From assembly GCF_913773995.1 (NCBI RefSeq), contig NZ_CAJYES010000189.1:1-64000 (forward strand): DNA of 64,000 bases, read 5' to 3'. Shown here piece after piece: positions 25,777 to 30,365 of this stretch. The position numbers and the translations under genes were made by a program. The first letter of the stretch is position 1. Each line of letters starts with the position of its first letter. The stretch comes from an uncultured Pseudacidovorax sp. GTDB taxonomy: Bacteria; Pseudomonadota; Gammaproteobacteria; Burkholderiales; Burkholderiaceae_C. The notes beneath the pieces are model-generated. The model ran no database searches. It was not told the DNA's origin and was given only the letters and a program-made list of their open reading frames with translations.

Positions 25777-26208
25777 ATGCTGCTTCGTGCATCTCTCGCC
25801 CTCTCGCTGGTGCTGGCCTCGTCGGCCGCGCTGGCGCAGATGAGCCCCGTGGGCCTGTGGCGCAACGTCGACGACAAGACGGGCGAGACAAAGGCCGAGA
25901 TCCGCATCACCGACAACGGCGGCCAGCTGTCGGGCCGCATCGAGAAGGTGCTGAAGAAGGAAGGCTCCTCCACCTGTGACCAGTGCACCGACGATCGCAA
26001 GGGCCAGCCCATCGTGGGGCTGGAGATCGTGCGCGGCGGCAAGAAGGCCGACGGCAAGGAAGTGTGGGAGGGCGGCAAGATCCTCGATCCCGAGAACGGC
26101 AAGGAATACCGCGCCAGCTATACGCCGGTCGATGGCGGCAAGAAGCTGGAAGTGCGTGGCTACCTCGGGCCGTTCTGGCGCACCCAGACCTGGCAGCGGG
26201 CGCAGTGA
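25777..26208 (+). CDS. DUF2147 secreted protein
   Basis: A 143-residue exported protein. It has a classic signal peptide (MLLRASLALSLVLASSAALAQ) with cleavage likely after ALA. A DUF2147 domain follows, with SPVGLWRNVDDKTGETKAEI, GRIEKVL, CDQC (possible disulfide or metal pair) and a C-terminal EVRGYLGPFWRTQTWQR. The family is a periplasmic beta-barrel-like fold of unknown function, often found beside lipid-metabolism genes. Here it lies inside the beta-oxidation operon between acyl-CoA dehydrogenase and the HAD/ECH gene. Confidence 0.88.
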   Translation: MLLRASLALSLVLASSAALAQMSPVGLWRNVDDKTGETKAEIRITDNGGQLSGRIEKVLKKEGSSTCDQCTDDRKGQPIVGLEIVRGGKKADGKEVWEGGKILDPENGKEYRASYTPVDGGKKLEVRGYLGPFWRTQTWQRAQ

Positions 26209-26267
26209 AGGCGCAAGCCGTTTCAACGCCTGGCCAAGACACCCAACGGTCCAAGACACCCAACACC

Positions 26268-28679
26268 ATGTCCAGATTCCAAGTCAAGAAAGTCGCCGTT
26301 CTCGGCGCAGGCGTGATGGGCGCGCAGATCGCGGCCCATCTCGTCAACGTGCGCGTGCCGGTCATCCTGTTCGACCTGCCCGCGAAAGAGGGGCCCAAGA
26401 GCGGCATCGTGCTCAAGGCCATCGACAACCTCAAGAAGCTCAAGCCCGCCCCGCTGGGCGTGGCCGAGGACGCGGCGCTGATCCAGGCCGCCAACTACGA
26501 GGAACACTTGGGCCTGCTGGGCGAATGCGACCTCGTCATCGAGGCCATCGCCGAGCGCATGGACTGGAAGCTCGATCTCTACAAGAAGATCGCGCCCCAC
26601 GTCGCGCCGCATGCCATCCTGGCCTCCAACACCTCGGGCCTGTCGATCACCAAGCTGGCCGAGGCGGTGCCGGAGAGCATCCGCCCGCGCTTCTGCGGCA
26701 TCCACTTCTTCAACCCGCCGCGCTACATGACGCTGGTGGAGCTGATCCCCACGCCCACCACCAATGCCCAGGTGCTGGACGACCTGGAAGCCTTCGCCGT
26801 CACCGCGCTGGGCAAGGGCGTGGTGCGTGCCAAGGACACGCCCAACTTCATCGCCAACCGCATCGGCATCGCCGGCATGCTGGCGACGATGAAGGAAGTG
26901 GAGAAATTCGGACTGTCCTTCGACGTGGTCGATGACCTTACCGGCAAGCGCCTGGGACGCGCCAGCTCGGGCACCTTCCGCACCGCCGACGTGGTGGGCC
27001 TGGACACCATGGCCCACGTCGTCAAGACGCTGCAGGACAACCTGAGCGAGGCGACCGACCCGTTCTACCCCAATTTCGCCACGCCGCCGGTGCTGGCCAA
27101 GCTGATCGAGCTGGGCCGCCTGGGACAGAAGACCAAGGGCGGCTTCTACAAGAAAGCGGGCCGCGACATCCTGCGCTTCGACCTCGAATCCGGCGACTAC
27201 GTGCCCGCCGGCCAGAAGGCCGACGAGGTCTACGGCCGCATGCTCAAGAAGCCCGCGGGCCAGCGCTTGAAGCTGCTGCGCGAGAGCGAAGGGCCGCAGG
27301 GCCAGTTCCTGTGGGCCATCCTGCGCGACGGCTTCCACTACGCGGCGCTGCACCTGGCCGACATCGCCGAAAGCGCCCGCGACGTGGATCTGGCCATGCG
27401 CTGGGGCTTCGGCATGAAGCAGGGCCCCTTCGAGCTGTGGCAGGAGGCCGGCTGGTCGCAGGTCGCGCATTGGATCCAGGAGGACATCGACGCCGGCAAG
27501 GCGCTGGCTAAGGCGCCGCTGCCGAAGTGGGTGTTCGAAGGCCCGGTGGCCGAGGCCGGCGGCGTGCACACGCCCGAAGGCTCGTGGAGCGCCGCCGAGC
27601 AGCGCTTCGTGCCCGAGCGCCGCCTGCCGGTGCATGCGCGCCAACTCTTCCCCGAGAGCGTGCTCGGCAGCGGCGCCAAGGCCGCCGAAGAGTCCGGCAC
27701 CACGATCAGCGACGAGGGCGACGTGCGCGTCTGGACGCTGGACCGGCCGGGCTACGAGGGCGTGCTGATCGCCAGCATCCATTCCAAGATGAATGCCATC
27801 AGCCCCGACGTGGCCGAGGCGCTGGCCGAGGCCGTGGCGCTTGCCGAGCGCGAGTACCAGGGCCTGGTGATCTGGTCGCCTTCGGACAAGTTCTCCGTCG
27901 GCGCCGACCTGCAGGCCATGCTGCCCGCCTTCGTGGTGGCCGGCGTGGGCGCGATCGAAGGGGCCGAGCAGGCGTTGCAGGACGTGATGCTGCGCATCCG
28001 TTATGCCAGCGTGCCGGTGGTCTCTGCCGTGCGCGGCATGGCCCTGGGCGGCGGCTGCGAGCTGGCGGTGCACAGCGCCCGCCGCGTGGCCGCGATGGAA
28101 AGCTACATCGGTCTGGTCGAAGTGGGCGTGGGCCTGGTGCCCGGTGCCGGCGGCCTGACCTACATCGCCCGCCGCGCGGCCGAGAACGCCGCCGCCTCCA
28201 CCGGCTCCGACCTGCTGCCCTTCCTCACCGAAGGCTTCACCGCCGCCGCCATGGCCAAGGTGGGCGCCAGCGCGCTGGAGTCGAAGAAGCTGGGCTACCT
28301 GGTCGAGGGCGACGTGATCGTCCCGCACAAGGACGAGCTGCTGCACGTGGCCATCGGCCAGGTCAAGGCCATGAGCGACGCCGGCTGGCGCCCGCCACTG
28401 AAGAAGCCCTTCCGCGTGGCGGGCCGCAGCGGCGCCGCCACGATCAAGGGCCAGCTGATCAACATGCGCGACGGCGGCTTCATCAGCGCGCACGACTTCC
28501 ACATTGCCAGCCTGATCGCCCATGTGGTGACCGGCGGCGACGTGGACCCCGGCACCCCGGTGACCGAGGAGTACCTGATGCGCCTGGAGCGCGAAGCCTT
28601 CTGCGCGCTGGTGCAGCATCCGAAGACGCAGGAGCGGATCATGGGGATGCTCTCGACGGGCAAGCCGGTCCGCAACTGA
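26268..28679 (+). CDS. 3-hydroxyacyl-CoA dehydrogenase / enoyl-CoA hydratase fusion (HAD first)
   Basis: An 803-residue bifunctional enzyme for hydration and NAD-dependent dehydrogenation in beta-oxidation. The N-terminal 400 residues form the 3-hydroxyacyl-CoA dehydrogenase: Rossmann motif KVAVLGAGVMGAQIAAHL, ILASNTSGLSI, and the catalytic His in GIHFFNPPRYM. The C-terminal part (about 490-690) is an enoyl-CoA hydratase/isomerase domain with FSVGADLQAM and the oxyanion motif RGMALGGGCELAVHSA. This order (dehydrogenase before hydratase) is that of Bacillus FadN-type proteins and the reverse of E. coli FadB. The thiolase gene that follows would complete the cycle. Confidence 0.93.
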   Translation: MSRFQVKKVAVLGAGVMGAQIAAHLVNVRVPVILFDLPAKEGPKSGIVLKAIDNLKKLKPAPLGVAEDAALIQAANYEEHLGLLGECDLVIEAIAERMDWKLDLYKKIAPHVAPHAILASNTSGLSITKLAEAVPESIRPRFCGIHFFNPPRYMTLVELIPTPTTNAQVLDDLEAFAVTALGKGVVRAKDTPNFIANRIGIAGMLATMKEVEKFGLSFDVVDDLTGKRLGRASSGTFRTADVVGLDTMAHVVKTLQDNLSEATDPFYPNFATPPVLAKLIELGRLGQKTKGGFYKKAGRDILRFDLESGDYVPAGQKADEVYGRMLKKPAGQRLKLLRESEGPQGQFLWAILRDGFHYAALHLADIAESARDVDLAMRWGFGMKQGPFELWQEAGWSQVAHWIQEDIDAGKALAKAPLPKWVFEGPVAEAGGVHTPEGSWSAAEQRFVPERRLPVHARQLFPESVLGSGAKAAEESGTTISDEGDVRVWTLDRPGYEGVLIASIHSKMNAISPDVAEALAEAVALAEREYQGLVIWSPSDKFSVGADLQAMLPAFVVAGVGAIEGAEQALQDVMLRIRYASVPVVSAVRGMALGGGCELAVHSARRVAAMESYIGLVEVGVGLVPGAGGLTYIARRAAENAAASTGSDLLPFLTEGFTAAAMAKVGASALESKKLGYLVEGDVIVPHKDELLHVAIGQVKAMSDAGWRPPLKKPFRVAGRSGAATIKGQLINMRDGGFISAHDFHIASLIAHVVTGGDVDPGTPVTEEYLMRLEREAFCALVQHPKTQERIMGMLSTGKPVRN

Positions 28680-28687
28680 CCCGCCTT

Positions 28688-28724
28688 GCTCCTTCCCCCT
28701 CTGGGGGAAGGCAGGGATGGGGGC
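28688..28724 (+). repeat. Left 37-bp inverted repeat of the DUF559 cassette
   Basis: 37 bases that match the reverse complement of 29105-29141 at 34 of 37 positions. The repeat is itself a hairpin (CCTTCCCCC, loop TCT, GGGGGAAGG at 28691-28711) followed by GCAGGGATGGGGGC. It begins 9 bases after the stop codon of the HAD/ECH gene. Confidence 0.8.
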
Positions 28725-29166
28725 AAGTGCCACAACACCGCTCATGCAGAACCAATCCACCTCCGCCGCTCGCACCCACGCGCGCGCCCTCCGCACCGCG
28801 ATGACCGACTCCGAGCGTCGCCTGTGGTCGTGCCTGCGCGGCGAGCAGCTGGGTGTGAAGTTCCGGCGGCAGCATCCGCTGGGTCCGTACATCGCGGACT
28901 TCGCCTGCCTGGCGCCGAAGCTGATCGTGGAACTCGACGGTTCGCAGCATGCGCAGCAGCGCGCCTACGACGCGGCGCGCGAAGCTTTCTTCGAGGCGCA
29001 AGGATTCGCCGTCTTGCGCTTCGCATCCAACGAACCCTTCATCAATCCAGAGGGTGTTCTGCACGCCATTGCCCATCGACTGGCATCGTTGGCGGCGCAG
29101 GCGAGCCCCCATCCCAGCCTTCCCCCAACGGGGGAAGGAGCCCAATACCCAGGAGCCCCGGCATGA
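28717..29166 (+). CDS. DUF559 protein (Vsr-like PD-(D/E)XK nuclease fold)
   Basis: A small protein of up to 149 residues. The core from about residue 18 (ARTHARALRTAMTDSERRLW) to 125 is a DUF559 domain, related to very-short-patch-repair endonucleases. It shows RRQHPLGPYIADFACLAPK and the nuclease-like D...ExD pattern in IADF and VELDGSQH. The first ATG lies inside the left inverted repeat. The ATG at 28744 (MQNQSTS) is an equally good start. The C-terminus (SPHPSLPPTGEGA) is encoded by the right inverted repeat, and the stop overlaps the thiolase start as ATGA. It has no link to fatty-acid metabolism and looks inserted. Activity is not shown. Confidence 0.85.
   Translation: MGASATTPLMQNQSTSAARTHARALRTAMTDSERRLWSCLRGEQLGVKFRRQHPLGPYIADFACLAPKLIVELDGSQHAQQRAYDAAREAFFEAQGFAVLRFASNEPFINPEGVLHAIAHRLASLAAQASPHPSLPPTGEGAQYPGAPA
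29105..29141 (-). repeat. Right 37-bp inverted repeat of the DUF559 cassette
   Basis: Inverted partner of 28688-28724 (34 of 37 identical), with its own hairpin CCTTCCCCC, loop AAC, GGGGGAAGG at 29118-29138. It overlaps the 3' end of the DUF559 coding region. Just after it comes AGGAG, the ribosome binding site of the thiolase gene, which is left intact. Confidence 0.8.
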
Positions 29167-30365
29167 GCAGCAAGCAAGTTCAAGACGCCTACATCGTCGC
29201 CGCCACGCGCACCCCCATCGGCAAGTCGCACCGCGGCTTCTTCCGCAACACTCGGCCCGACGATCTGCTGGCCACGACGCTGAAGGCGGCGCTGGCGCAG
29301 GTGCCGCGCCTCGATCCGCAGACCATCGAGGACATCGTCTGCGGCTGCGCCATTCCCGAGGCCCAGCAAGGCCTGAACGTGGCGCGCATCGGCGCCGTGC
29401 TGGCGGGCCTGCCCACCAGCGTGGGCGGCATCACCGTCAACCGCTTCTGCGCTTCCGGCCTGTCGGCCGTGCAGATGGCGGCCGACCGCATCCGTGTGGG
29501 CGAGGCCGAGGTGATGATCGCCGCTGGCGTCGAGAGCATGAGCATGGTGCCGATGATGGGCAATGCGCCCTCGCTGTCGCCGTCCATCTTCGAGCGCGAC
29601 GGCGACGTGGGCATCGCCTACGGCATGGGCTTGACGGCCGAGAAGGTGGCGCAGCAATGGAAGGTCAGCCGCGAGGCGCAGGACGCCTTCGCGCTCGAAT
29701 CGCACCGCCGCGCCGTCGCCGCCCAGCAGGCCGGTGAGTTCGCCGACGAGATCACGCCCATCGAGGTCACCGACCGCGGCTTCGACGCCGCCAGCGGCGA
29801 GACCACCGCCAGGACGCGCACCGTCAACCTGGACGAGGGCCCGCGCCCCGACACCAGCCTGGAGGGCCTGGCCAAGCTGCGCACCGTGTTCGCCGCCCGC
29901 GGCACGGTGACGGCCGGCAACAGCTCCCAGACCTCGGACGGCGCCGGCGCGCTGATCCTGGCCAGCGAGGCCGCCTGCCAGAAGTACGACCTGCAGCCGC
30001 TGGCGCGCTTCGTCAGCTTCGCCAGCAAGGGCGTGCCGCCGGCCATCATGGGCATCGGTCCCATCGAGGCCATCCCAGCCGCGCTGCGCTATGCGGGCCT
30101 GAAGCAGGACGACATCGACTGGATCGAGCTGAATGAGGCCTTCGCGGCTCAGTCGCTCGCCGTGATCAACACGTTGGGCCTGGACGTCGCCAAGGTCAAC
30201 CCGATGGGCGGTGCCATCGCCCTGGGCCACCCGCTGGGCGCGACGGGCGCCATCCGCGCCGCCACGGTCGTGCATGCGCTGCGCCGCAAGCAGCTCAAGT
30301 ACGGCATGGTGACCATGTGCGTGGGCATGGGGCAGGGCGCGGCGGGCATCTTCGAGCGCGTCTGA
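29163..30365 (+). CDS. Acetyl-CoA C-acyltransferase (thiolase)
   Basis: Last enzyme of the beta-oxidation cycle, cleaving 3-ketoacyl-CoA with CoA. The 400 residues contain the acyl-accepting Cys in NRFCASGLSAVQ, GVESMSMVPM, the His in GGAIALGHPLGATGA, and the second catalytic Cys in TMCVGMGQGAAG. Length and spacing match FadA-type thiolases. The ATG is preceded by AGGAG and shares ATGA with the stop of the DUF559 gene. Without the inserted cassette it would follow the HAD/ECH gene closely, the usual fadB-fadA order. Confidence 0.94.
   Translation: MSSKQVQDAYIVAATRTPIGKSHRGFFRNTRPDDLLATTLKAALAQVPRLDPQTIEDIVCGCAIPEAQQGLNVARIGAVLAGLPTSVGGITVNRFCASGLSAVQMAADRIRVGEAEVMIAAGVESMSMVPMMGNAPSLSPSIFERDGDVGIAYGMGLTAEKVAQQWKVSREAQDAFALESHRRAVAAQQAGEFADEITPIEVTDRGFDAASGETTARTRTVNLDEGPRPDTSLEGLAKLRTVFAARGTVTAGNSSQTSDGAGALILASEAACQKYDLQPLARFVSFASKGVPPAIMGIGPIEAIPAALRYAGLKQDDIDWIELNEAFAAQSLAVINTLGLDVAKVNPMGGAIALGHPLGATGAIRAATVVHALRRKQLKYGMVTMCVGMGQGAAGIFERV

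Follow-up and report, generated by a model that had tools for sequence, protein, structure and literature searches.

We analysed a 64,000-nucleotide stretch of DNA from an uncultured Pseudacidovorax sp. (contig NZ_CAJYES010000189.1, positions 1 to 64,000; the whole stretch is called the window below), in which a DUF559 nuclease gene lies between two inverted palindromic repeats. The left repeat (28688–28724, plus strand) and the right repeat (29105–29141, minus strand) are inverted copies of each other, with 34 of 37 bases identical (92 %), and the gene between them matched Pfam family PF04480 at E=8.1e-37, scoring 125.9 bits against a curated cut-off of 20.6. Both repeats share nine-base arms (CCTTCCCCC-NNN-GGGGGAAGG), forming the hairpin CCTTCCCCC-TCT-GGGGGAAGG at 28691–28711 on the left and a hairpin at 29118–29138 on the right. 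By inspection, the second half of each repeat is a purine tail, NNGGGATGGGGGC, which mirrors the purine arm of the stem with A or T opposite A. The tails, GGGATGGGGGC at 28714–28724 and its counterpart at 29105–29115, both face the DUF559 gene, and both ends of the cassette are of the type that we designated A. An earlier note on this DNA had described the 37-bp flanks as inverted copies around a DUF559 gene, each a hairpin with identical nine-base arms, and the alignment, folding and Pfam search bear this out. Its account of the repeats was right as to the hairpin and missed both the purine mirror tail and the identity with published triplex-type repeats (PIT or Box C).

The gene probably begins at 28744 and runs to 29166 on the plus strand (140 amino acids), with the conserved domain at 28768–29082. 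A longer frame of 149 amino acids opens with the ATG at 28717, which falls within the left repeat, but this start is doubtful because several relatives begin at the in-frame equivalent of the ATG at 28744 (MQNQ...). The start codon that the earlier note placed in the repeat is thus probably an over-extended start, whereas the other half of the same claim held: the C-terminal codons of the gene extend across the right repeat, with the stop codon (29164–29166) overlapping the ATG of the downstream gene at 29163. The whole cassette region (28680–29162) is bordered by an upstream gene at 25983–28679 (plus strand; frame start over-extended), which we take to be of the 3-hydroxyacyl-CoA dehydrogenase/enoyl-CoA hydratase type, and by a downstream gene at 29163–30365 (plus strand), presumably a thiolase, both names coming in part from the earlier note. 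The reading frames on both flanks are open, and both flanks were found in 15/15 congeners.

As single-stranded DNA, a single 37-mer folds into a 9-bp hairpin at −9.9 kcal/mol. This energy is unremarkable by itself, because 28/200 and 7/200 shuffled 37-mers folded equally well for the two repeats. A scan of the window for the arm pattern (up to three mismatches, loop one base over-long) gave four matches, or two overlapping alignments per copy, where 0.07 were expected, and none elsewhere in the window. A promoter or terminator role for the repeats was considered and set aside, as no terminator- or promoter-like site matched at the locus.

Across the 5.37-Mb genome the pattern matched 32 times at up to three mismatches, one match being a shifted duplicate, which left 31 distinct copies; the reversed-pattern control gave none. 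Only one DUF559 gene was found in the same genome. Twenty of the copies form ten short inward pairs of ~90–110 bp, two frame the DUF559 gene and nine are single, some of these at contig ends. Every short pair (10/10) joins a type A end, with tail GGGATGGGG, to a type B end, with tail GGGGTGGGG. The bases 5′ of the arm were CT in 21 of the 22 copies with enough flank, most commonly TTGCT, and GTAG was not found at the hairpin foot in any of these 22.

Comparison of the orthologous site in 15 genomes of the genus revealed that the cassette is polymorphic in place. Ten genomes have an empty site, with 20–23 bp between the two host genes and no repeat, and this cassette is present in three (the window's own genome, G005 and G009), so that DUF559 is not fixed here. 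One genome (G014) carries a different DUF559 gene with ends of another type, S. A further genome (G010) has a cassette of the G014 kind minus 217 bp, in which the gene has been gutted and both ends retained. Because no repeat is present at the empty site of these ten genomes, gene and repeats arrived together. The short elements are polymorphic too, as each of six A/B pairs of the window's genome was missing at the orthologous place in at least one examined relative. The one cassette site and six sites of short elements that were compared gave no sign of a target duplication, and the junctions differed by tens of bases.

The association between repeats and DUF559 genes was examined at 141 loci. 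Peptide patterns supplied 80 of these, the genus and host family 32, and a phylum-wide sample 29. Three of seven matches were used from the genus (the window locus, one contig-end match and two partial matches were excluded), and the family and phylum samples were the best 30 of each by protein profile, less the window locus and one short locus. Two proteins were counted twice among the 141 (L036/L118 and L037/L120), as two of the family loci also occur in the peptide-pattern set. Inverted-repeat flanks were present at 29/32 genus and family loci (position-shifted controls 0/64), at 59/78 peptide-pattern loci (two of the 80 lacked flank; shifted controls 3/143) and at 15/29 phylum-wide loci (shifted controls 1/58). 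A swapped-flank control was high at the same threshold (26/64, 5/58 and 21/156) because loci share repeat types, and was not taken as a null. Hairpins with a pyrimidine 5′ arm pointed inward from one side or both at 130/141 loci (shifted controls 13/267), and from both sides of the gene at 84/141 (shifted controls 1/267). An independent finder that required the mirror tail, applied to the 80 peptide-pattern loci, detected it inward on the left at 42 loci and on the right at 31, as opposed to outward at 15 and 10, with a background of 17 in 359 kb lying more than 500 bp away from the genes. Other repeat copies near DUF559 genes, which the earlier note had named as a prediction of its proposal, were thus present at most loci examined.

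Arm and tail of these flanking hairpins covary by type. The arm GGGGGAAGG went with the tail GGGATGGGGG in 38/47 cases, GGGAGAGGG with GGGTGAGGG in at least 30/74, GGAGAGGGG with GGGGGAGAGGG or GGGGGTGAGGG in at least 13/26 and GGGGGAGGG with GGGTGGGGG in at least 7/22, and the mean mirror score of the flank hairpins exceeded that of all 200 shuffles. Compared as possible inverted copies of each other, the sequences just outside the two ends matched only slightly more often than expected (4.13 vs 3.27 of 12 bases; all 500 shuffles scored lower). Downstream of one relative's DUF559 gene we observed a row of CCCCTCTTTGCTAAAGAGGGG-type hairpins (L232:1855-2360), which may be these same ends in a form richer in AT.

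Repeat type also matched the clade of the nuclease. Mapped on the protein tree of the 141 loci (100 typed), it changed 20 times, compared with 41 when shuffled; on the tree of 39 family loci (36 typed) it changed three times, against a minimum of two and a shuffled value of 14. Four genera contain both types, namely g1 (G000 A, G014 S), g21 (G034 A, G244 S), g71 (G084 A, G189 S) and g122 (G227 A, G296 S), and in all four the flank type tracks the nuclease rather than the host. The dispersed copies of a genome likewise match the ends of its cassette: ten genomes with type-A flanks held mainly A/B copies and 13 with type-S flanks mainly S copies (p=6e-5). This comparison drew on 24/38 typed genomes, some typed from one side and one dropped for having no copies, and excluded genomes with CCCCTCTCCC-type flanks (G018, G133, G193, G265) and those that were not fetched. 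G286 held A/B and S copies in similar number. Where both ends of a type-A locus could be seen, 8/9 cassettes were A+A, L179 being A+B; G286 is also A+B.

A genome-level comparison within the host family pointed the same way. Among 299 family genomes, 38 had a full DUF559 gene, defined as a match of at least 100 bits; 53 of the 91 with any PF04480 match fell below this value and were counted as without, the scores showing a clear gap from 105.8 to 51.5 bits. Type A/B and type S copies were counted per genome, and reversed-pattern controls were 0. At least five dispersed copies were present in 29/38 genomes with full DUF559 and 17/261 without (p=9e-21), and thresholds of 1, 3, 10 and 20 copies agreed, with p from 8e-12 to 7e-18. 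In 22 genera, genomes with and without DUF559 occur side by side; those with the gene had more copies in 15 of these genera, fewer in one (g5) and a tie at zero in six (p=5e-4). Seen from the side of the repeats, full DUF559 occurred in 29/46 repeat-rich and 9/253 other family genomes. Y1_Tnp, the RAYT-type transposase domain, was unlinked to the repeats, occurring in 32/46 repeat-rich and 190/253 other genomes (p=0.46). The DUF559 counts may be lower bounds, because the profile search found none in its E. coli control (strain not named) though K-12 has one. One genome, G029, is rich in both repeat types and has no full DUF559 but 14 Y1_Tnp matches; it is possibly a RAYT-driven or relic case.

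The AlphaFold2 model of the DUF559 protein has a predicted Vsr-like PD-(D/E)XK fold in which the conserved acidic and His residues are in place. The second-best solved fold for the model was I-Bth0305I, with Vsr also among the best, and the closest systems further included 3HRL, the endonuclease-like protein NGO0050, whose entry title assigns no function. Searches of the defence-system library gave a single weak match (Hhe, E=0.067), and those of PHROGs only weak matches. Matches were found in 38/72,556 records of a plasmid collection, 31 of them called non-mobilizable and some chromosome-sized, and in 2/50,697 records of a phage collection.

We interpret the cassette as a small REP/RAYT-like mobile element, consisting of a nuclease gene between cognate ends, in which DUF559 would cut those ends and drive their copying; we put the probability of this reading at about 0.62. 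The comparison of sequences shows association, cognate matching and mobility, and from these we infer the enzymatic action on the repeats and the repair route. Under this proposal the nuclease would recognise the hairpin-plus-mirror end, probably in an extruded or single-stranded state at a replication fork, and would cut or nick there, after which host repair would copy either the whole element or a short pair of repeats to a new place. The short pairs of one type A and one type B end would be non-autonomous passengers moved in trans, and repeats could persist as relics once the gene is lost. Such a cut-then-host-repair route fits both a nuclease without joining activity and the ragged junctions. 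The earlier note had likened the layout to REP/RAYT elements in which a Vsr-like protein would replace the transposase, and this likeness is upheld by repeats flanking DUF559 at most loci and by the predicted fold. Here, too, inverted palindromes frame an enzyme gene and many copies are dispersed, often as inverted pairs. The system differs in that its enzyme is a predicted Vsr-fold PD-(D/E)XK nuclease instead of a Y1 HUH transposase, that the hairpin foot lacks GTAG and that the repeat has a third, mirror strand. Because enzyme and repeat foot differ, it works like REP/RAYT without being a member.

Several observations weigh against this interpretation. At the genome level, 17 genomes have at least five copies without full DUF559, genus g5 shows the reverse trend, 9/38 genomes with DUF559 lack both of the searched repeat types, and the cross-genome statistics are not fully independent. 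G296 has S flanks yet 46 A/B copies compared with six S copies. Across loci, a two-sided inverted repeat was found at only 15/29 of the phylum-wide sample and 11/141 have no inward pyrimidine-arm hairpin, while just 141/290 flank hairpins had a mirror tail that scored well (at 8 or 9 out of 9), the rest, many from other lineages, being hairpins that lack such a tail. E. coli and three relatives, described below, have repeats on one side only (none at the 5′ end in the relatives), and the repeat nearest to the E. coli gene is eroded. The junctions of filled and empty sites are not clean, with tens of bases replaced or added and no target duplication. Finally, PD-(D/E)XK nucleases are not known to join strands on their own.

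The main rival is that a Vsr-type DUF559 nuclease is a homing parasite, which would cut at or beside pre-existing repeats of separate origin and be copied in by recombination. The predicted fold of the DUF559 protein resembles that of I-Bth0305I, a Vsr-like homing endonuclease and mobile-element nuclease; here, in contrast, palindromic ends accompany the gene and many copies are gene-less. Homing into existing repeats is nevertheless unlikely given that the empty allele at the window site has no repeat in ten of the 15 genomes, that type-A cassettes are nearly always A+A whereas the short pairs of the window's genome are all A+B, and that repeat type follows nuclease clade. The last of these observations also bears on a less probable scheme, in which another enzyme, either a RAYT/Y1 protein or some other nuclease, moves the repeats and DUF559 is their commonest passenger or a protected host repair gene. 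RAYT proteins have been hypothesised to move GTAG-type REP elements (discussed in PMC3733652), and Y1_Tnp occurs in 222/299 family genomes, the window's own included. Its presence was unrelated to repeat abundance, unlike that of DUF559, and it is the DUF559 clade that repeat type follows, so we consider this scheme improbable.

Slightly less credible again is the idea that DUF559 is a Vsr-like mismatch or structure repair gene, which would act on G-rich hairpins that have slipped or been damaged and would be kept nearby for that function. The predicted fold would suit such a role, and Caulobacter VsrA, which itself has a DUF559 domain and shares the fold, is reported to cause an SOS response in the absence of a cytosine methylase and has been proposed as a mismatch nuclease (PMC12907096). 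One would not expect a repair gene to have its own substrate on both sides, to vary at a single site among members of one genus, or to give rise to gutted versions of itself; the cognate repeats around the gene and its polymorphism at this place are what separate the window locus from Vsr and VsrA. There remains chance or bias, in that genes often have GC-rich hairpins nearby and sampling may have favoured repeat-bearing loci. One of the six search peptides (PTGEGAQY) is indeed encoded by the repeat, so that the peptide-pattern sample is mildly biased. The family and phylum samples, which were drawn by profile only and are free of that bias, show the same association; their shifted controls were 0/64 and 1/58 and the reversed-pattern controls were 0 in every genome listed. 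On the strength of these controls we regard this explanation as already refuted.

The repeats resemble the dispersed PIT/Box C/TM repeats, described as a hairpin with a mirror third strand (Holder et al. 2015, PMC4666352), in that the window repeats are a hairpin plus a purine stretch mirroring the purine arm. They also share the mixing of two types in inverted pairs, seen in the ten short pairs here and, in that source, in 5/5 E. coli pairs of TM, Box C and PIT, each joining type A with type B. The published types are split by the second loop, TTA or CCG, while those here are split by arm and tail, and here the repeats frame DUF559 genes and match them in type. The available text of the same paper places triplex-type repeats in more than 260 bacterial genomes, demonstrates triplex formation in vitro for an E. 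coli sequence (not for the window repeat), reports no link to transposons, phages or plasmids, and names no enzyme or origin for them. In a genome paper, 100 CCCTCTCCC...GGGAGAGGG palindromes are described in Enterobacter sp. 638, with a suggested role in termination (PMC2869309). The main text of a 2025 REP survey (PMC12306157) contains none of the words nuclease (as a word start), Vsr or RAYT. A paper linking DUF559 or YcjD with these repeats was not found in the open PMC literature, a search that did not cover subscription papers and preprints.

The recurrence of this pairing of gene and repeat across many bacteria makes DUF559 a promising candidate for the enzyme so far missing from the account of this widespread repeat family, which includes Box C of E. 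coli. In E. coli K-12 the DUF559 gene is ycjD (Pfam E=1.4e-49). A Box C element lies ~165 bp beyond its stop codon with the tail directed away from the gene, and an eroded hairpin overlaps the end of ycjD by eye. Between ycjD and the Box C element, an apparent partial second copy of the 3′ end of ycjD was noticed by eye (L181:5206-5760), as if an older cassette had decayed alongside. In three genomes, all from one family in the same class, YcjD homologues (54–64 % identical) are accompanied by an inward Box C-type repeat at the 3′ end. In two of these (L239, L241) an outward Box C-type repeat follows the inward one, and the loops of the L239 pair, CCG and TTA, are of the E. coli types. The 1.1-kb ycjD region was at least 80 % present in 3,333/5,426 E. 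coli genomes. In two genomes without it, a regulator and an efflux operon stand beside fabI instead, an arrangement that a 2026 paper describes for whole phylogroups (PMC12817139).

An evenly balanced proposition is that these elements constitute a new class of bacterial mobile element, with a Vsr-fold nuclease as sole enzyme and hairpin-plus-triplex ends, that is the source of PIT, Box C and TM repeats across phyla and that includes ycjD as a partly eroded member with repeats on one side. The DUF559 domain is widespread and its name in Pfam still reads 'unknown function', and the link to triplex repeats gives both a testable role; ycjD and its Box C elements are the place to look in E. coli K-12. 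If the proposed mechanism is true, a repair-type nuclease would alone run the dispersal of repeats, by a route distinct from that of HUH transposases such as RAYT.

At four loci the DUF559 domain was in frame with sequence of PriA, HsdS-like (two loci) or IleS origin (L059:2-2194, L060:2833-4122, L103:2809-4140 and L105:37-2502). The HsdS-like calls are a weak Pfam match in L060 and an assignment by eye in L103, and L059 and L105 lie at contig ends with their upstream halves outside view. The sequences suggest cassettes that were read through as in-frame insertions into coding genes. L105 also has a perfect long palindrome near its contig end (L105:1-86), which is probably an assembly or chimera artefact. 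Seven genomes from other classes of the phylum (G332, G478, G379, G528, G585, G631 and G561) had 7–10 DUF559 matches each, compared with mostly one or two in genomes of the host family.
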